Of a stretch of DNA of 41,079 bases, positions 29,393-38,142 are shown piece by piece. The stretch is taken from contig PKUH01000110.1 in the NCBI GenBank assembly GCA_002869615.1, forward strand, positions 1-41,079. The letters run 5' to 3'. Below the pieces are notes generated by a model. The model had not been told where the DNA came from and did not search any database. It worked only from the letters and a program-made list of their open reading frames with translations. The position numbers were made by a program, and so were the translations under genes. This DNA comes from Desulfuromonas sp. (GTDB taxonomy: Bacteria; Desulfobacterota; Desulfuromonadia; Desulfuromonadales; UBA2294). The first letter of the stretch is position 1; every line of letters starts with the position of its first letter.

Positions 29393-30385
29393 CTACTCGA
29401 AAACCGAGTAGAATGCTTCATTCTGATAGACATTAAACTTCCCTTCGCGATCGGCACGCTCAGGATCCCCCTCCTTGCGTGAGGAGTCGTCGTCAAAGAC
29501 GACAACAATCCTCCCGTCTTCAGTAACGGCAACCCCTTCCGGTTTGTGCAGAAAAGATCGGAGCACCTCGATGTCGCAGTCACCCGTACCCTTCTCAAGG
29601 AGGTCTTCGGGGATGGCCCAAAGGTGCCCACCCAGGGCATCGATGCTCTCGCCTTCGTAGCTTGTCAACATCAGGTAGCGCTTTCTGAGCCCATCATATT
29701 CGAGGGCGGAAATCCCTTCGGCCCGGCCGAAGCGCTTCACGGTGTCGACCTCAAGGACTTTTTCGAGAGGATCGCCGCCATCGACAATCGGAAGTTTCCA
29801 TATCATGACGACGTAAGAAGGCTCTTTGTAACTTGGTCCGATTTCACGGACACCGACATAAGCGGCCCTGTCATCTCTGGAAAGGGCAAATGCTTCGATC
29901 TTCATGTATGGGGTGTTGAGTCGTTCGCGCAACTCTGCCAACTTCGCCCCAAGCTCCGGGAGTTCCTCAGAAGACCAGCCACCGCCAGAACGGGGTGATA
30001 TTTTGATAAGTCTGTTGTAGGCAGGATCAGGCCGATCGTACGAGGTGACCGCATATATCTCCCGTGAACCCCGGTTCGAGGCTGAAGCATCCTCGAATTT
30101 GCGCGCTTCGATTATGCGGCCATCTGCAGTCCGCAGAGGGATGTTTTCAATAAGGAAGAGTCCCTCCTGCAGATGATAAAGATAAACGGGAGGTTCGTCG
30201 TTCTTATCGTTAAAGACGAAAAGGTTCTCCCCCTGGTGAGCCAGACCCGATGGTTCAAACCTTGCGGCACGTGCGTGAGGGCCCTTCATGGTCAGATAGG
30301 TATCTTCGACCGGTATCCCGGAAGAACATCCCCAGAGCGGAATCAGACACAACAGCGGCAGGAACTTAATCATTCGATGGGGCAT
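29393..30385 (-). CDS. Lipoprotein, probable beta-propeller / phytase-esterase-like
   Basis: A 330-residue protein with lipoprotein signal peptide (lipobox IPLWGC, Cys near 20). The mature part has repeated short strands such as GLAHQGENLFVFNDKNDE, EAFALSRDDRAAYVGVRE and PEGVAVTEDGRIVVVFDDD. These resemble blades of esterase-like phytase or DUF3616-type propellers; acid residues could hold calcium. No catalytic set is certain. ATG 30383-30385 has GGAG seven bases upstream and lies within the 3' end of the cyclic-nucleotide-binding gene (20-bp overlap), so the two are probably one transcript. It ends six bases from the cyclase gene on the other strand. A surface or periplasmic part of the same system is likely. 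Confidence 0.75.
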   Translation of the reverse strand: MPHRMIKFLPLLCLIPLWGCSSGIPVEDTYLTMKGPHARAARFEPSGLAHQGENLFVFNDKNDEPPVYLYHLQEGLFLIENIPLRTADGRIIEARKFEDASASNRGSREIYAVTSYDRPDPAYNRLIKISPRSGGGWSSEELPELGAKLAELRERLNTPYMKIEAFALSRDDRAAYVGVREIGPSYKEPSYVVMIWKLPIVDGGDPLEKVLEVDTVKRFGRAEGISALEYDGLRKRYLMLTSYEGESIDALGGHLWAIPEDLLEKGTGDCDIEVLRSFLHKPEGVAVTEDGRIVVVFDDDSSRKEGDPERADREGKFNVYQNEAFYSVFE

Positions 30386-31544
30386 GCGATTTCTCCATAA
30401 AGGCTCTGAGTCTCTGCGAAAGGGTCGTGATGATGCCGCGAGTCAGTTCCGGATACTCCTCGATCAGTTCGTAGAAGTCGCCGCGATCGAGCTTCAGAAG
30501 ATCACAGTCAGATATCGCCCTGACCGTCGCACTTCTCGGCGCGTTATCGAAAAGCGCCATCTCCCCGAAATAATCCCCTTTACTCAGGACGTTAATCCTC
30601 TTCTGCTCCTTCTCCACCGACACATTCCCGTTCAAAACGATATAGAAGGAGTCACTCGGATCGTTCTCCCGGCAAACGACTTGACCTTCTTCGACCGATT
30701 CTTCAGCGAACATCTCGGCCACCGGGCGAAGTTCTTCTCCGGAGAGGAGTGAAAACATCGGTACACTCTTAAGGAAAAATATTCTATCCATCGTCCACAT
30801 CGAAGGACCTCCACTCTCTTGAGTTTTTTCGGTAACGACCCAGTTCGCAACAGACTTCAACCACGGATCATCTATTTCCAGAAGCAGATTCTGCCAGCCG
30901 CCTGCGCATTCCCCCTGGACTTCTCCTGTCGGCGCGGGGGAAGCCATCGGTAATGTATCTTCAAGGAAAGGAATGACATAAGAGGCGGTATCCTTATGGA
31001 TAATATTTTCAAGGAGCTCTATGCTGTTGGCAACATCCCTCTTCTGGGTACTGATATAGTTCAGAAAGGCCTTGTAAATGGTCTTCTGATCGTAGAGAAG
31101 TCCCAATCCTCTAAAGATGCTCTCCCTGTTCCTTGCGATGCTATGGGTGATCTCCCGACAAAACATATTCCCCTTGAAAGATTCTATCTGATCGGGGTTC
31201 TCCGCAATTCTTGAAAAGGTGGCGAGGAGCACTTTCAATTTTTGCCCAATTTCGATCTCCGCTAGAATGATCTGAAGGAGTTTTTCTTCGAATCGATGCA
31301 TATCATGGAAGGTTTTATTAATCGTGTTGAGAGATGACAGGGCCATGTTCCGATCGATCGAATCGGCATTAACGGCAATATCGACCAGATTTTCAACTGA
31401 CTCGTCGCAGACGATCCGGCCGAGAGTGGAGAGGATTCCAAGTCGCAAACGCGAATTACCGTCATCGCGGTCATAGGTCTCACGGAGGAAGCGGACGCCC
31501 TCCGGGCCATAAGAAACCAGGGCGCTCTTCGCAACGCCGCACAT
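30366..31544 (-). CDS. 3' part of a split transporter gene: HEAT repeats and cyclic-nucleotide-binding domain
   Basis: This 392-codon reading frame continues the gene at 31635-33491 in the same frame after one TAA. Residues 1-230 are HEAT-like helices; residues about 255-375 are a cyclic-nucleotide-binding domain with the phosphate-binding cassette KGDYFGEMALFDNAPRSATV, whose Glu and Arg are the known contacts for cyclic phosphate and ribose. The 30 codons between the TAA and this ATG (SVLREAIKSAGRLSTPTLLP and on) also read as a HEAT repeat. The ATG at 31542-31544 has GGAGGG only one base upstream, a poor spacing, so independent translation may be weak. Ligand is likely cAMP given the cyclase next door, but cGMP or others are possible. 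Confidence 0.85.
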   Translation of the reverse strand: MCGVAKSALVSYGPEGVRFLRETYDRDDGNSRLRLGILSTLGRIVCDESVENLVDIAVNADSIDRNMALSSLNTINKTFHDMHRFEEKLLQIILAEIEIGQKLKVLLATFSRIAENPDQIESFKGNMFCREITHSIARNRESIFRGLGLLYDQKTIYKAFLNYISTQKRDVANSIELLENIIHKDTASYVIPFLEDTLPMASPAPTGEVQGECAGGWQNLLLEIDDPWLKSVANWVVTEKTQESGGPSMWTMDRIFFLKSVPMFSLLSGEELRPVAEMFAEESVEEGQVVCRENDPSDSFYIVLNGNVSVEKEQKRINVLSKGDYFGEMALFDNAPRSATVRAISDCDLLKLDRGDFYELIEEYPELTRGIITTLSQRLRAFMEKSHAPSND

Positions 31545-31634: not shown

Positions 31635-33491
31635 TTAGTCGGGGCTTTCGAGTAGAGGGATCAATGGCTCTGCCAAGGAATCCAGAGCAACCTCACCGGC
31701 GATATACGCAGCCGTTCTCTGCTCTTCCGGCAGAGCGCTGTCAAACAGCTGCAGGAGACGCGACTCGGCGAGAGCTCTCGTTTCAGAATCTCCTTTCAGA
31801 ATGAGATAAATCAGAGCTTCTCCCAGAACCTGGAGGTCTTTGCAGGAAAGGTATGGATCTAAATCTCGAGTATGATCAGTGCCCGGGATACAGCAAAGAG
31901 CACGAATGCAATACGCTTGATCAGCCGAAATACCTGTCGTTGCAAGATGACGCAATAAAACTCCGGAGGCTTTTTCGCCAAGACATTTACCGGCGACCAT
32001 CAGGGCTTCTTTTCGGATGAGAGCACTTTTGTGATCAAAGAGCGCGCTTATGCGATCAAGACTCACCGGCAACAGATTCTCCTTGATCAGTTCAAGGGAG
32101 AAAAGGACCTCCTTGTCGACCTTTGACGTGAGGGTCTCCTCGATTGCACCGATAATATTTGGCTCGGAGATCCCTTCTGAGAATCCACCACTCTCCTGCA
32201 GCCTAATCCTTCGCCTGCTCAAAGAGCTTCTCAGCTTTTCCACATAAGGTTTTTTGAGATTGATGGCAGACAGAACGGCGAAGATGCAGAGAACGGAAAC
32301 GGTAACTGATATCATCTGGAGAGACATCGTCTTCTCGGCAAGGATCAGTAAACCACTGGCCATCAGAACGGCCAGCGGTTTAAAGATACCATCCGAAGAA
32401 ATCTTCAATTTTGACTGCTTGGCCGGTGAGTATGGCATATAGAGGATACTCGACGCCGTCTTGAATGATGAGTATTTGAGAACGTTTTCTGAAAAACGGA
32501 TCCCGGCAACAATCCAGATGGATGGCAAAAAGACAAAAACGAGTGAACCTGTAAAGAGAGTCATTGGCATAAGCAGGAGGCTTACGACCATTCCGAAGGT
32601 CAGCAGGATGCGCCCCGCCACGAAGAGTTGGAAAAAGAGGGCGACTGCATTCAATGCCGCGAAAAAAATGCCGAGAAAAGCTGTGATCTGATCCCTGGAA
32701 TAGCTCTCTTTAAGCATCGATTTGAATTGAAAATCTATCAGGGTCGAACAAATAACCATGGTGCAGGAAAGCGCGAGGAAGGTCAGCATCAGCCTGTCCT
32801 TCATCACATCAGTGCCCGCCGAGGACATGCGTAAGAAAAAATTCCTGCTCCGCGAACTTTCCGTGATCTCCTCAGCCTGAGAGCCCAGAAAAGTGTTGAA
32901 GATCTTCATGTCCAGAATGAGCATGAAGCCGAGGATGGGGATCACCGCCAGAAGGAGATTTTCTGTCCCGAACCAATGGGCCAAAACCGGCACCAGAAGC
33001 CCCATAAGAACGGCCCCCATCGTTCCTCCCGCATTGACAACTGAAGAGAGCCTCTTCGCCTCCCTGGTATCAAAGGTCCTTATGACCGTTATGGCACTGA
33101 TCATGACAAGAATATCGACAAGGGTCTGCAAAACGATATAAAGCGCAAAGACGAGCCAAGGGGCAGGATTGGCAAGGAAAAGTCGTGCAAGGACAAGAGC
33201 TGCAATGAAAACAATTTTGAGGCCGAGAGACTCCGTGGTCTTCTTAAGCGTAAGAGAGCTTTGAACAGTTGAGACAAAGACAAAGAAGACAGATTGGAAC
33301 GCAAAGAGGTAAGGGAGGTAATGGGTCTCGTAGGTGTCCAGGAAAAGGGCCGTTATCAGGCTCTGAATAACCACCAGGGCGGCTATGGCCAGAGCCGAAT
33401 AGGTCGATAGGACAAGAACTTTTTGCCCTTCACCCTGTTTTATGCCGAGAAGGTCGCTGAGTTTATCCACAGGACTGATCTTTATTGCCAT
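31635..33491 (-). CDS. 5' part of a split gene: Npt/Tlc-like 12-TM transporter with HEAT repeats
   Basis: This 618-residue reading has 12 predicted membrane segments in the first 420 residues (for example LALVVIQ-like IAALVVIQSLITALFL and ALYIVLQTLVDILVMIS), resembling nucleotide transporters of the Npt/Tlc family or other MFS-type carriers. HEAT repeats follow from about residue 430. Reading ends at TAA 31635-31637 within a repeat (LIPLLESPD). Downstream codons in the same frame continue the repeats and reach the cyclic-nucleotide domain; the full protein would be about 1040 residues. I chose ATG 33491 (GAGAG upstream) over a reading to 33545, which would start inside a strong hairpin. Transport substrate is unknown; the domain order suggests that cyclic nucleotide controls it. 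Confidence 0.82.
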   Translation of the reverse strand: MAIKISPVDKLSDLLGIKQGEGQKVLVLSTYSALAIAALVVIQSLITALFLDTYETHYLPYLFAFQSVFFVFVSTVQSSLTLKKTTESLGLKIVFIAALVLARLFLANPAPWLVFALYIVLQTLVDILVMISAITVIRTFDTREAKRLSSVVNAGGTMGAVLMGLLVPVLAHWFGTENLLLAVIPILGFMLILDMKIFNTFLGSQAEEITESSRSRNFFLRMSSAGTDVMKDRLMLTFLALSCTMVICSTLIDFQFKSMLKESYSRDQITAFLGIFFAALNAVALFFQLFVAGRILLTFGMVVSLLLMPMTLFTGSLVFVFLPSIWIVAGIRFSENVLKYSSFKTASSILYMPYSPAKQSKLKISSDGIFKPLAVLMASGLLILAEKTMSLQMISVTVSVLCIFAVLSAINLKKPYVEKLRSSLSRRRIRLQESGGFSEGISEPNIIGAIEETLTSKVDKEVLFSLELIKENLLPVSLDRISALFDHKSALIRKEALMVAGKCLGEKASGVLLRHLATTGISADQAYCIRALCCIPGTDHTRDLDPYLSCKDLQVLGEALIYLILKGDSETRALAESRLLQLFDSALPEEQRTAAYIAGEVALDSLAEPLIPLLESPD

Positions 33492-33512
33492 AGCTCTCGG
33501 CAGTAATTGATA

Positions 33513-33550
33513 ATTGAGTGTCCATCCGAAAATCCGGATGGACACTCAAT
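33513..33550 (-). repeat. Perfect 16-bp inverted repeat between the FecR and transporter genes
   Basis: ATTGAGTGTCCATCCG (33513-33528) pairs fully with CGGATGGACACTCAAT (33535-33550) around a 6-nt loop. It lies in the 94-bp gap after the FecR stop. On the minus strand it is followed by TATCAATTAC, not a true U tract, so it may be a weak terminator, an RNA-stabilising hairpin or a protein site. Confidence 0.75.
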
Positions 33551-33585: not shown

Positions 33586-34323
33586 CTAGGGGATCGTTGG
33601 GCCCGGTTGGCCCGGTTCGCCAGAGTCAGGATCCTGATCAACGGGTGGCTCGAGCGCTGGATCCGGTTCGGTGATTGCATCGATCGTATCCGTTATGTCG
33701 TCAACTTCTTCGCTAACTTCGGACTCCTCCGTTATGCCGGTGAGGGGGACCGCTACCGGTTCGGAAACAGCCTTGCCCTGTTCGATTGTAACCATCTGTC
33801 CCGCTCGAATGAAGATTTTTCCACCCTGGGAAGGATCAACAGAAGAGACATCAACAATTCCTTCAAGGCAGGTAACAGTCGTAAAAGGATTGCCGCTTTC
33901 ATTGACTCCGACGTTGAAATCGATCACGGTGCCACGGGCCGCGGCGTAACTTGTCGGCGTGTGAACCTCGAAATTGGTCTTGCCGACGACCGCACGCATC
34001 TGGCCATCGACAAGATTAAATATCGACTGGCCCCGATCTTCTCTATTGTAAACAAAATCTGATATCTGCATCTTTGACCGTGACTTGAGAGTCAGAATGC
34101 TGTCGTCAACAAAGAGCATTTTGATCCGTGAACTCCCCCCGGTCGCGACTGTATCGTCCAATTCGATACTATCGTTGACCATGGCCGCTGCCGCTTGTCC
34201 CTGAGTCTTATAAATCGTCGCCTCCCCCCTCACCTGAACGACCTTGCCGACAAGAGGAACGGCATACCCGTTGGAGGAGAGAACCAAAAGCAGAACCGTC
34301 ATCGCAAGAATTATTCTAGCCAT
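33586..34323 (-). CDS. Exported FecR-domain protein
   Basis: A 245-residue protein with a signal peptide (MARIILAMTVLLLVLSSNGYA) and a FecR domain at about residues 50-155 (DDTVATGGSSRIKMLFVDDS; FEVHTPTSYAAARGT). The T-P-x-A-x-x-x-R-G-T stretch is the family hallmark. Here there is no anti-sigma part, unlike classical FecR; such stand-alone periplasmic FecR proteins are often coded next to CHASE2 cyclases. The C-terminal 60 residues are acidic and Pro-rich (EPDPALEPPVDQDPDSG), likely disordered. GAGG precedes the ATG at eight bases. It begins two bases after the TPR/barrel gene stop, so the two are co-transcribed from the riboswitch leader. Confidence 0.9.
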   Translation of the reverse strand: MARIILAMTVLLLVLSSNGYAVPLVGKVVQVRGEATIYKTQGQAAAAMVNDSIELDDTVATGGSSRIKMLFVDDSILTLKSRSKMQISDFVYNREDRGQSIFNLVDGQMRAVVGKTNFEVHTPTSYAAARGTVIDFNVGVNESGNPFTTVTCLEGIVDVSSVDPSQGGKIFIRAGQMVTIEQGKAVSEPVAVPLTGITEESEVSEEVDDITDTIDAITEPDPALEPPVDQDPDSGEPGQPGPTIP

Positions 34324-34325
34324 GA

Positions 34326-35618
34326 TTAAAACCTCACTTTCAGATCGAGTCCGGTTATGGCCCTGTCATAAGTATAGTTGTCCATATTGGCCTTGTTATT
34401 AATATAACTCTGACTAAACATCAAACCGACATAGCTATTGAGCTGCTTCTCGAAACTCAATAAGGCCTTGTAGCTGTCTTGTTCTCTCTTTTTCGGATCA
34501 AATCCTTTTATCTCATCATATTTACGACGGTCATAGCTCCCGTAAATTCCGAAATTGAAATCGCCACTCAGATCTAAATTGTATTCGAGAAAAGTCTTGT
34601 TGCTGCTGTATTGACGAAAATCCTCCTTAGCAGAGTTTTTCGCATAGACATAACCCAATTTTGCTTTGCCCATCTCTCCCAGTTTCGCCGTTTGAACAAT
34701 ACCGGCAATATGTGTATGGCCTGTTTTCTGAGAGTTCGTTGGAAAAAGGGGGCTGTCCTCGTAGTTGGTTTGCTTGTAATTGTATGTAAGGATGGTCATA
34801 AGCTCATCCCCTTCCGGAATGATAATAGACGGGCCAAAACTGTTCGAATAGTTGTACTTTTCACTTCCGAGGAATGTGTAGTTAAAGGCATAGCGGGCTT
34901 CCAGGGTTACTGCCTCGAACCGATATTGGGTCTTTGCTTTCAGAGCATGTGACTGGATATCAGAATCATCGAGTTCATTGTGCAGAGTCTGAAAGAATGA
35001 ATAAGAAGTGTTCAATTTGAATTTATCGGTGCGGAGCGCATCATATCCGCCATTAAAAGCAAAGGTATTTCTCCAGTCGCTCTCATCGTCAACTCCAAAC
35101 GGGAGCGTTCCTGACTTCGATTTAACGATAACATTGGTGTCGTACTGAACTCCCGTCGAAAACTCAAGCTTCCAAGGTTTCTCCGCCTTCTTGATCGCCT
35201 CTTCTATCTGCAGAATATAATCATCAGCCTGCTTCGCAAGATCTGTACTGGGAGCCAAATCTCGCGAATTTTCAAAGAAATCTTGAGCTTCTTCATAGAT
35301 CTTCGTTCGGTAGTAGTAAAATCCAAGCTCATAGTTGACCTTGGGATCTTCGGGATAGGAACGCAAAAGGCCTTTCAATATTGCCTCAGCTTCGTCAAGC
35401 CCCTCTTTGTTGAGAGTCATGCCAAGATAAAGCATCGCATCGTAGCTTTTCGGGTTGATCTTCAGGGCTTCCCGGAAGGAGGCTTCAGCATCACGGTATT
35501 TTTGCTCAGCCAGAAAGGCCTGACCCTGTTCCACAAGCTCTTCAGGAGAAGCCGCAAAACCATGCGGGACAAAAAAAACAAACAACAAGGCAAGCAGGAC
35601 CAATAAGGAACGTTTCAT
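34326..35618 (-). CDS. TPR-containing outer-membrane beta-barrel protein
   Basis: A 430-residue exported protein. The signal peptide ends near FAASPEE (about residue 22). TPR repeats fill about 25-150 (YRDAEASFREALKINPKSYD; DPKVNYELGFYYYRTKIYEE). From about residue 150 to the end, strands with alternating aromatic residues (KFKLNTSYSFFQTLH; ARYAFNYTFLG; FNFGIYGSYDRRKY) and a final LDLKVRF with terminal Phe point to a beta-barrel in the outer membrane. The layout is like SlpI/DUF560-type proteins, but I make no assignment. AAAGGGG lies eight bases before ATG 35618. Upstream lie a promoter, a riboswitch and a terminator, so this is the direct target of the RNA switch. Confidence 0.87.
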   Translation of the reverse strand: MKRSLLVLLALLFVFFVPHGFAASPEELVEQGQAFLAEQKYRDAEASFREALKINPKSYDAMLYLGMTLNKEGLDEAEAILKGLLRSYPEDPKVNYELGFYYYRTKIYEEAQDFFENSRDLAPSTDLAKQADDYILQIEEAIKKAEKPWKLEFSTGVQYDTNVIVKSKSGTLPFGVDDESDWRNTFAFNGGYDALRTDKFKLNTSYSFFQTLHNELDDSDIQSHALKAKTQYRFEAVTLEARYAFNYTFLGSEKYNYSNSFGPSIIIPEGDELMTILTYNYKQTNYEDSPLFPTNSQKTGHTHIAGIVQTAKLGEMGKAKLGYVYAKNSAKEDFRQYSSNKTFLEYNLDLSGDFNFGIYGSYDRRKYDEIKGFDPKKREQDSYKALLSFEKQLNSYVGLMFSQSYINNKANMDNYTYDRAITGLDLKVRF

Positions 35619-35670
35619 TTCGAGACCCCTTTAAGTTGTTGTTAAATAAGAAAAATTAAAGCTGCAAAAA

Positions 35671-35711
35671 TAAAAATAAAAATCCCATCTTCAACAACCG
35701 AAGATGGGATT
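35671..35711 (-). terminator. Terminator hairpin of the riboswitch expression platform
   Basis: AATCCCATCTT (35701-35711 on the minus strand) pairs with AAGATGGGATT (35681-35691), 11 bp plus a closing C-G. On the minus strand TTTTATTTTTATTTTT follows. It stands between the aptamer and the TPR gene start. The segment GAGATGGGG at 35732-35740, next to the aptamer's closing stem, could pair with CCCATC of the left arm to make an antiterminator. Confidence 0.85.
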
Positions 35712-35738
35712 AAAATATATTCCTCTACTCTTCCCCAT

Positions 35739-35825
35739 CTCTCTTCGGCGGCCCAGCCATCTCTTTATTTCGAGACCTGAAACTCTGCGTCCTGGCATTG
35801 CTGCAAGTTTGCTCTTTTCGGAGAG
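35739..35825 (-). promoter_or_regulatory. GEMM-I riboswitch, probable cGAMP-sensing type (GEMM-Ib)
   Basis: On the minus strand an 87-nt region matches the c-di-GMP-I (GEMM-I) aptamer. Seen in order: a P1 half CTCTC (35825-35821); GAGCAAAC (35814-35807); a hairpin TTGCA-GCAA-TGCCAG with a GNRA loop; GGACGCAGAG (35792-35783); a second stem GTCTC/GAGAT (35775-35771 with 35763-35759); GGCTGGGCCGCCGA; and P1 half GAGAG (35743-35739). By alignment to the Vc2 aptamer, the base that contacts the first guanine (G20 there) is A at 35813. A at this position marks the group that prefers 3',3'-cGAMP, known from Geobacter. It begins some seven bases after a -10 box and precedes a terminator. Whether the ligand turns the gene on or off cannot be read directly. 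Confidence 0.83.
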
Positions 35826-35832
35826 TTATCAC

Positions 35833-35861
35833 AGATTAACAAACAGGGTTTTACATGTCAA
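35833..35861 (-). promoter_or_regulatory. Sigma70-type promoter for the riboswitch-TPR-FecR transcript
   Basis: On the minus strand TTGACA (35861-35856) is followed after exactly 17 bp by TAATCT (35838-35833). Transcription would begin near 35826, directly at the first base of the riboswitch closing stem. Confidence 0.8.
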
Positions 35862-36883: not shown

Positions 36884-38059
36884 TTATCTTCTCCCGAGAA
36901 ACTCCATCCCGAGCAGAGAGACATCATCCTGCAGGGGGCGACTGTTGCCGAAATGATCGAGGGCCCGGCACAGGCCGGTGCAGGATTCCTGCAGGGTCAA
37001 GCTGTCGCGCCGCAAGACATCAAGAACCCGCTCGGGTCCGAACGCTTCACCACTGAAGTCACTGTACTCGGTAACCCCGTCCGAGTAGAGGTAAAGGCGG
37101 TCGCCCGGTTGCAGGGCCAGGTGCCCCTCTTCGTAAGGTCCGGTGCCGTGTAGTCCGATCAGGCCGCCGCCGGTTGTCAGCCATTGATGCGAACCATCAT
37201 TGTGGATAAGAAGTGGTGCCGGGTGCCCGGCGCAACTGTAGGAAACGGTACCGGTCCTGATATTGATCAGCATATAGATGATCGTGAAGAACTTGTCGAA
37301 ACGATCGAAGGGGTATTCGTTGGCGAGCTCAACCATGACTTCGGCCGGCGAGAGCAGGCGATAGTAGGGCGGCTCGGAGAACACTTTTTTAACGATCTGG
37401 CTGGTATGGGTCGATAAAGACTGGTTGACCGAAACCGTGACCATCGCCGAAGAGATTCCGTGCCCGCTGACATCGAGCAAAAAGGCCATGATCGTCTCCT
37501 CATCAACCTGGAGAACGTTAAACAGGTCACCGCCAATTTTCTCGAACGGTGAAAACTCCCAGGCAAAAGTCATCGCGCTGATATTAGGCAGCTTGCCCGG
37601 CAGTAGCGACTGCTGAATCAGCGCCGCCGAGCGCAGATCTTCTTCCTCCTCGGCGCTCCGCTCGAGCAAACGGATCTGCATCTCCTTGAGTTCCCGGGCC
37701 TGCCAGGCGAGTTGCCGGTAAAGGCTCAGTTTCTCCGACCATTCGGTCAGATTGTTCTGGTCGCGAATGACGCCATGGGTCGGTTCGATCTGTTGAAAAC
37801 CGGGACTTTGTTCAGAAGAAAAAAGCAGACAGGGCGCATAGTGTTCGTGTGCGGTTTCAAGCATCGTGATGCCGGCTTTTTTATCCTCGTGGAAAAGCCG
37901 GGACTCGATCATGACCAGACATTCGGAGTTGATCGACGCCTTTCCGGCATCGGCAAAACTTGCCTTCCACGCCAGTGCATATCCCTGGTCGATCAGGAAC
38001 TGCCTGACCTCAACCGGCAGGTCATTACTCCCTTTTGCAAACAAAATAGCATCAGCCAT
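36884..38059 (-). CDS. PP2C/SpoIIE-type serine phosphatase with N-terminal regulatory domain
   Basis: A 391-residue soluble protein. The N-terminal 125 residues look like a degenerate receiver-type domain (MADAILFAKGSNDLPVEVRQ; no clear phospho-Asp set). A coiled coil follows (about 130-165, ELKEMQIRLLERSAEEEEDL), then the phosphatase domain beginning AALIQQSLLPGKLP, with metal-binding GGDLFN, DVSGHGISSAM, YSDGVTEY and LQDDVSLLGMEF. These are the aspartates of SpoIIE/RsbU-type enzymes that dephosphorylate anti-sigma antagonists. I chose ATG 38059 (GAGGG upstream) over a reading to 38113. No anti-sigma or antagonist gene is near. It is divergent from the SDR gene. Confidence 0.92.
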   Translation of the reverse strand: MADAILFAKGSNDLPVEVRQFLIDQGYALAWKASFADAGKASINSECLVMIESRLFHEDKKAGITMLETAHEHYAPCLLFSSEQSPGFQQIEPTHGVIRDQNNLTEWSEKLSLYRQLAWQARELKEMQIRLLERSAEEEEDLRSAALIQQSLLPGKLPNISAMTFAWEFSPFEKIGGDLFNVLQVDEETIMAFLLDVSGHGISSAMVTVSVNQSLSTHTSQIVKKVFSEPPYYRLLSPAEVMVELANEYPFDRFDKFFTIIYMLINIRTGTVSYSCAGHPAPLLIHNDGSHQWLTTGGGLIGLHGTGPYEEGHLALQPGDRLYLYSDGVTEYSDFSGEAFGPERVLDVLRRDSLTLQESCTGLCRALDHFGNSRPLQDDVSLLGMEFLGRR

Positions 38060-38072
38060 GGCATTGCCCTCT

Positions 38073-38100
38073 TTGCATTTGCCCACTTTATCATTATACT
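38073..38100 (+). promoter_or_regulatory. Probable sigma70 promoter of the SDR gene
   Basis: TTGCAT (38073-38078), 16 bp, then TATACT (38095-38100). It lies in the 83-bp gap between the divergent phosphatase and SDR genes and 43 bp before the SDR start codon. Confidence 0.5.
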
Positions 38101-38142
38101 GCCGATTACGCATTTATTGATTTCACGCTTAAAGGAGCCGTA

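Follow-up and report, generated by a model that had tools for sequence, protein, structure and literature searches.

A GEMM-I riboswitch of Desulfuromonas with predicted cGAMP preference and a putative OFF platform ahead of a TPR/FecR operon

A GEMM-I aptamer on the minus strand

We analysed a window of 41,079 nucleotides from Desulfuromonas sp. (contig PKUH01000110.1) and found on its minus strand an RNA that is a genuine and largely typical member of an established riboswitch class, GEMM-I. Taking all parts together, we lean somewhat towards the explanation that this RNA is an A20 GEMM-Ib riboswitch which would act as a transcriptional OFF switch for a TPR/FecR operon.

The first-pass annotation of this DNA had proposed a GEMM-I riboswitch, and a covariance search of the window with RF01051 bears this out. 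The match (35823-35744, minus strand) covers model positions 1-87 of 87 and scores 48 bits (E 1.7e-6), above the gathering score of 35 that defines the family. The aptamer (35744..35823, minus strand) is full-length at 80 nt; the 87 nt given earlier is the length of the model. A model of the genome's own aptamers, which includes this sequence, scores it with 74.7 bits (E 6.8e-27). The RF01051 search finds 16 GEMM-I matches above the cut-off in the 3.08-Mb genome, and the window aptamer scores below most of them. The landmarks named in the annotation, a GNRA hairpin (loop GCAA), GCAAAC, GGACGCA and GCCGA (within GCCGAA), can all be read in the sequence, as can GCAGAG, and the three-way junction is complete with its P2 GNRA hairpin, GCAAAC, GGACGCA, A47 and C92. 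The P1 5' strand CUCUCCG (35819..35825, minus strand) pairs with CGAAGAG (35747-35741) with one C.A mismatch, and P2 contains one mismatch as well. Folded by itself and without constraints, the window aptamer did not adopt the aptamer fold in thermodynamic prediction. Base pairs were counted in a single alignment, for which a model built from the 16 aptamers of the genome was run over the GEMM-I loci of 33 genomes of the same order. On 83 distinct relatives, the 18 counted pairs are 97% standard and every one of the 18 shows two-sided changes. None of 500 shuffles reached the pair score, and sliding the partners abolished the signal. A plain attenuator without an aptamer is ruled out, the covariance score and the pair covariation being too strong for it.

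A -35 box TTGACA with 6/6 consensus bases (35856..35861, minus strand) and a -10 box TAATCT (35833..35838, minus strand), 17 nt apart, are read directly in the sequence. The annotated promoter is thus present, but its TAATCT box is weak (3/6 matches to TATAAT) and the pair was not reported by a promoter scan of the window. The predicted transcript start, at about 35827, lies immediately before the P1 strand, which fits this promoter.

A separate terminator and the predicted direction of switching

Downstream of the aptamer we find an intrinsic terminator hairpin, AAUCCCAUCUUCGGUUGUUGAAGAUGGGAUU (35681..35711, minus strand), followed by a U-rich tract (35664..35680, minus strand). The annotation had placed both correctly, but the hairpin has 13-14 pairs, not 11. 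It begins 32 nt past the aptamer, and the two have no base in common. The strand CCGAAGA (35742..35748, minus strand) combines the ligand-contacting C92 (35748), most of the P1 3' strand and a putative antiterminator strand; its reverse complement, UCUUCGG, is part of the terminator's 5' arm and loop (35698..35704, minus strand). Since the terminator is separate and its arm is complementary to the aptamer 3' end, an antiterminator would compete with the ligand-bound fold. When the ligand is absent, CCGAAGA and the adjoining GAUGGGG would pair with the 5' arm and loop, keeping the terminator open and allowing the TPR/FecR operon to be transcribed. Binding of cGAMP made by a GacA-type Hypr GGDEF enzyme would lock the CCGAAGA strand into P1 and, through C92, into the pocket, upon which the terminator would form and transcription would end in the leader. 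On the basis of these folding predictions, cGAMP probably causes termination.

The duplex between this switching region and the terminator arm is predicted at -17.3 kcal/mol, compared to -10.6 (sd 2.5) for shuffled sequences, of which 23 of 2000 were as low. When the RNA is cut before the terminator 3' arm, its unconstrained fold is the antiterminator (-37.2 kcal/mol versus -30.6 kcal/mol with the aptamer imposed). In the full-length RNA without ligand the terminator is favoured with a probability of 0.97, which means that any antitermination would need to be under kinetic control. GAUGGGG is able to pair with the terminator arm even when P1 is formed. Within the order, 57 of 102 separate GEMM-I riboswitch terminators contain a complement of at least 6 nt to the aptamer 3' end, compared to 13 of 119 other terminators; the latter include several riboswitch terminators, and the automatic classes are rough, as illustrated by locus L002, whose best-energy hairpin spans the aptamer though a separate terminator is visible. 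Covariation of the antiterminator strand was not discerned when matched and permuted pairs were compared (5.65 versus 5.36, sd 0.09, at least 1 of 200 permutations being higher). Likewise, where the aptamer 3' end deviates, the complement in the terminator does not change with it (9 better, 9 worse, 4 equal).

This layout is also that of Cd1, the c-di-GMP-I riboswitch of the Clostridioides difficile flagellar operon, an OFF switch in which terminator and aptamer coexist (PMC9262584). Cd1 also has a separate terminator, and its antiterminator consists of an aptamer-stabilising strand and a terminator arm (PMC9262584). The CCGAAGA/UCUUCGG pair, which with its flanks gives the -17.3 kcal/mol duplex, provides the window RNA with the same type of platform, its function being predicted. 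Cd1, however, is a G20 aptamer with c-di-GMP as its ligand. The GEMM-Ib riboswitches of Geobacter (pgcA GSU1761, pilM, Gmet_0970) resemble the window RNA in aptamer family, in A20 and in the presence of a GacA-type Hypr GGDEF synthase; they also control surface or electron-transfer style genes, such as are found behind riboswitches elsewhere in the Desulfuromonas genome. The tested ones are ON switches (PMC6456294, PMC9262584) whose terminator and aptamer are mutually exclusive. Deletion of gacA in G. sulfurreducens lowered all GEMM-Ib-controlled genes (PMC6456294), and in the pilM cGAMP switch terminator and aptamer exclude each other (PMC9262584). By this precedent the window RNA could be a cGAMP-preferring ON switch too, its bound aptamer somehow blocking termination, and the A20 switches at loci L011 and L012 of the same genome indeed have ON-design terminators that contain the aptamer 3' end. 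The window terminator, in contrast, does not include the aptamer 3' strand, so both structures can coexist, and it still forms in the full-length fold when aptamer and P1 are imposed. We therefore consider an ON switch unlikely and retain the OFF direction.

Linked aptamer bases and a predicted GacA-type synthase point to cGAMP

Alignment to RF01051 and A1 places an A at 35813 (minus strand), which is the specificity base at Vc2 position 20. The A in place of G claimed in the annotation is thus confirmed, and by this base the aptamer would fall into the GEMM-Ib subclass. In experiments, a cGAMP aptamer of Geobacter becomes one for c-di-GMP upon the A20G exchange (PMC6456294). The annotation had also drawn attention to GCAGAG (35783..35788, minus strand). 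This variation is real but no isolated oddity: G48 (35785) is compensated by C73 (35750), as is typical of A20 aptamers, and the first P3 pair is kept as G-C since U73 is C in the window aptamer. A48 is a conserved pocket base in c-di-GMP aptamers (PMC3764141), and A42, its counterpart in the structure of the cGAMP aptamer, opens P3, which closes at U73 (PMC6274999). The window aptamer shares with the c-di-GMP-I aptamer Vc2 the overall fold, the GNRA loop, A47 and C92; it differs in having A20, G48-C73 and a short P3 hairpin where Vc2 has G20 and A48.

Among 227 distinct aptamers of the order, G48 is found in 33 of 89 with A20 compared to 1 of 134 with G20 (Fisher 2e-14), although the A20/G48 members stem from seven genomes and the counts are non-independent events. 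In the same 227 aptamers the 48-73 pair covaries (A-U in 171, G-C in 32). Because the order-level counts are not independent, a second sample was taken from a public collection of named genomes, using a pattern with G48 fixed and any base allowed at position 20. Here, 60 of 68 G48 RNAs have A20, seven have G20 and one has U20. The A20 members come from Gemmatimonadetes, Acidobacteria, Nitrospirota, Desulfuromonadales and others. The second-sample loci happened to contain seven A48 aptamers as well, all of them with G20. In Gemmatimonadetes, A20/G48-C73 GEMM-I aptamers were seen at L287, L288, L293, L294, L298, L311, L313, L324, L327, L337, L354 and other loci, some of them arranged as double or triple arrays; of three such genomes, one (G099, L413) has a Ser-type GGDEF as its best match to the GacA-like domain. 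A few aptamers carry C or U at position 20 (L007 1501-1578, L110 1500-1582, L194 101-188, L334 262-338, L119 1501-1579), and the one at L334, from Geomobilimonas, combines U20 with G48-C73.

The genome contains 17 GGDEF matches. Two are intact and have Ser where diguanylate cyclases have Asp (GHLAGSKTL and GHLVGSRIL), Ser being the Hypr signature in GacA (PMC6456294). For both, the best PDB match is 6d9m, the GacA GGDEF domain of G. metallireducens (1.8e-55 and 1.4e-42). The first lies in a 467-aa REC-GAF-GGDEF-like protein with a receiver-like N-terminal part as in GacA, the domains being named by eye. Judged by gene content, the host is predicted to make cGAMP with this GacA-type Hypr GGDEF. 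A third Ser-type GGDEF-like domain (L091 1501-1806) has a degenerate GGDYY motif and is perhaps binding-only. Ser-GGDEF orthologues of the first protein, 57-77% identical, are present in 14 relatives among the genomes searched; family f18 has best matches of just 42-45% identity, though these are Ser-type too. No GEMM-I match was found in the f18 genomes G019, G041 and G051, and some orthologue-bearing genomes gave none either, so that co-occurrence of synthase and riboswitch is loose.

Since A20, the coupled G48-C73 and a GacA orthologue in the genome all support it, we regard it as probable from sequence that the window aptamer prefers 3',3'-cGAMP. A20 may not by itself make an aptamer blind to c-di-GMP: an A20 aptamer of Desulfobacca gained cGAMP affinity while its c-di-GMP affinity was only slightly reduced (PMC9481103). 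For the omcST switch of G. sulfurreducens, sensitivity to both messengers has been reported (PMC6456294). With many Asp-type GGDEF domains in the genome too, the aptamer might mainly answer c-di-GMP, or both messengers, in the cell. However, the near-exclusive link of G48-C73 to A20 aptamers points to a pocket adapted to the other ligand, cGAMP, and the genome contains both A20 and G20 switches, in seven and eight copies, as if sorting two signals. We consider such a response improbable and keep cGAMP as the predicted ligand.

The downstream operon and its conservation

As annotated, a TPR gene follows the terminator, its ATG at 35618 preceded by a ribosome-binding site AAAGGGG (35626..35632, minus strand). 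Gene 1 (34326..35618, minus strand) encodes a signal peptide, TPR repeats (residues 25-145, Pfam TPR) and a strand-rich C-terminal domain. The structure model (mean pLDDT 54) is confident in the TPR part and of low confidence for about 14 C-terminal strands, which likely constitute an outer-membrane barrel. The genes that follow, all on the minus strand, encode a FecR-domain exported protein (gene 2, 33586..34323; PF04773, 1.4e-12), an MFS-like membrane transporter (gene 3, 31635..33545; PF07690, E 1e-5, below the curated cut-off), a protein with a C-terminal cyclic-nucleotide-binding domain (gene 4, 30366..31544; PF00027, 1.5e-25) and a predicted lipoprotein (gene 5, 29393..30385), an open reading frame which overlaps gene 4, matches nothing in Pfam and NCBIfam, and may mark the operon end. 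The extent of the operon and its envelope role are putative. Through gene 4 the operon may link a cyclic mononucleotide signal to regulation by a cyclic dinucleotide. A SpoIIE-type phosphatase gene (36884-38113; PF07228, 3e-37) is found about 1 kb upstream of the riboswitch, in the same orientation.

In 98 genomes the gene 1 protein has a single clear full-length homologue (29%, in G046), near which no aptamer was found; the named genome collection gave 51 pattern matches to the TPR protein, none of them a relative. Gene 3 is absent from both family relatives (G001 and G002). A TPR/FecR gene set behind a GEMM-I RNA was not found in relatives. With one homologue, near which no aptamer was found, and a transporter missing in both family relatives, the operon seems to have been recruited locally and not to be a conserved part of a regulon. 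Other A20 switches of the genome precede multihaem cytochromes (L005), an apparent fimbrial cluster (L015), response regulators (L002) and an iron-sulphur protein (L012). The earlier suggestion of a cGAMP regulon is therefore reasonable, given the cytochrome and fimbrial-type genes behind other A20 switches, but the TPR/FecR operon has no riboswitch-linked counterpart in relatives. That the RNA is a decayed remnant with a plain terminator and no regulation, as its comparatively low score, weak -10 box, P1 and P2 mismatches and non-conserved locus might suggest, is very improbable given that the pocket bases A47 and C92 are retained, G48-C73 is compensated and the complementary switching strands are intact.

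Implications and a mixed tandem elsewhere in the genome

Three aspects merit a specialist's attention: the direction of switching, predicted to be OFF, the triad of A20 with G48-C73, and a mixed tandem. As a broader claim, whose chances we judge evenly balanced, cGAMP riboswitches would exist in an OFF form besides the known ON form, and their specificity would be marked by the linked triad in several phyla, including Gemmatimonadetes, beyond the deltaproteobacteria of the first description. If so, cGAMP would repress as well as induce surface genes, and one messenger could swap envelope programmes. The triad would also be a sharper sequence test for cGAMP-sensing GEMM-I RNAs, and it would predict cGAMP signalling in phyla for which the papers searched gave no report of it.

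Finally, the mixed tandem is found at locus L008 of the Desulfuromonas genome, where two closely similar GEMM-I aptamers lie 40 nt apart (1501-1579 and 1620-1698; G000:C1:30194-30272 and 30313-30391). The first is G20/A48/U73, the c-di-GMP type, and the second A20/G48/C73, the cGAMP type; they differ also at positions 19 and 49. A combination of c-di-GMP and cGAMP is absent from a table of tandem gates (PMC9481103). Each aptamer has a terminator formed from its own 3' end (CCAGG...CCUGG). Both therefore look like ON switches, and the tandem, which precedes an exported 479-aa protein, is predicted to form a c-di-GMP AND cGAMP gate.
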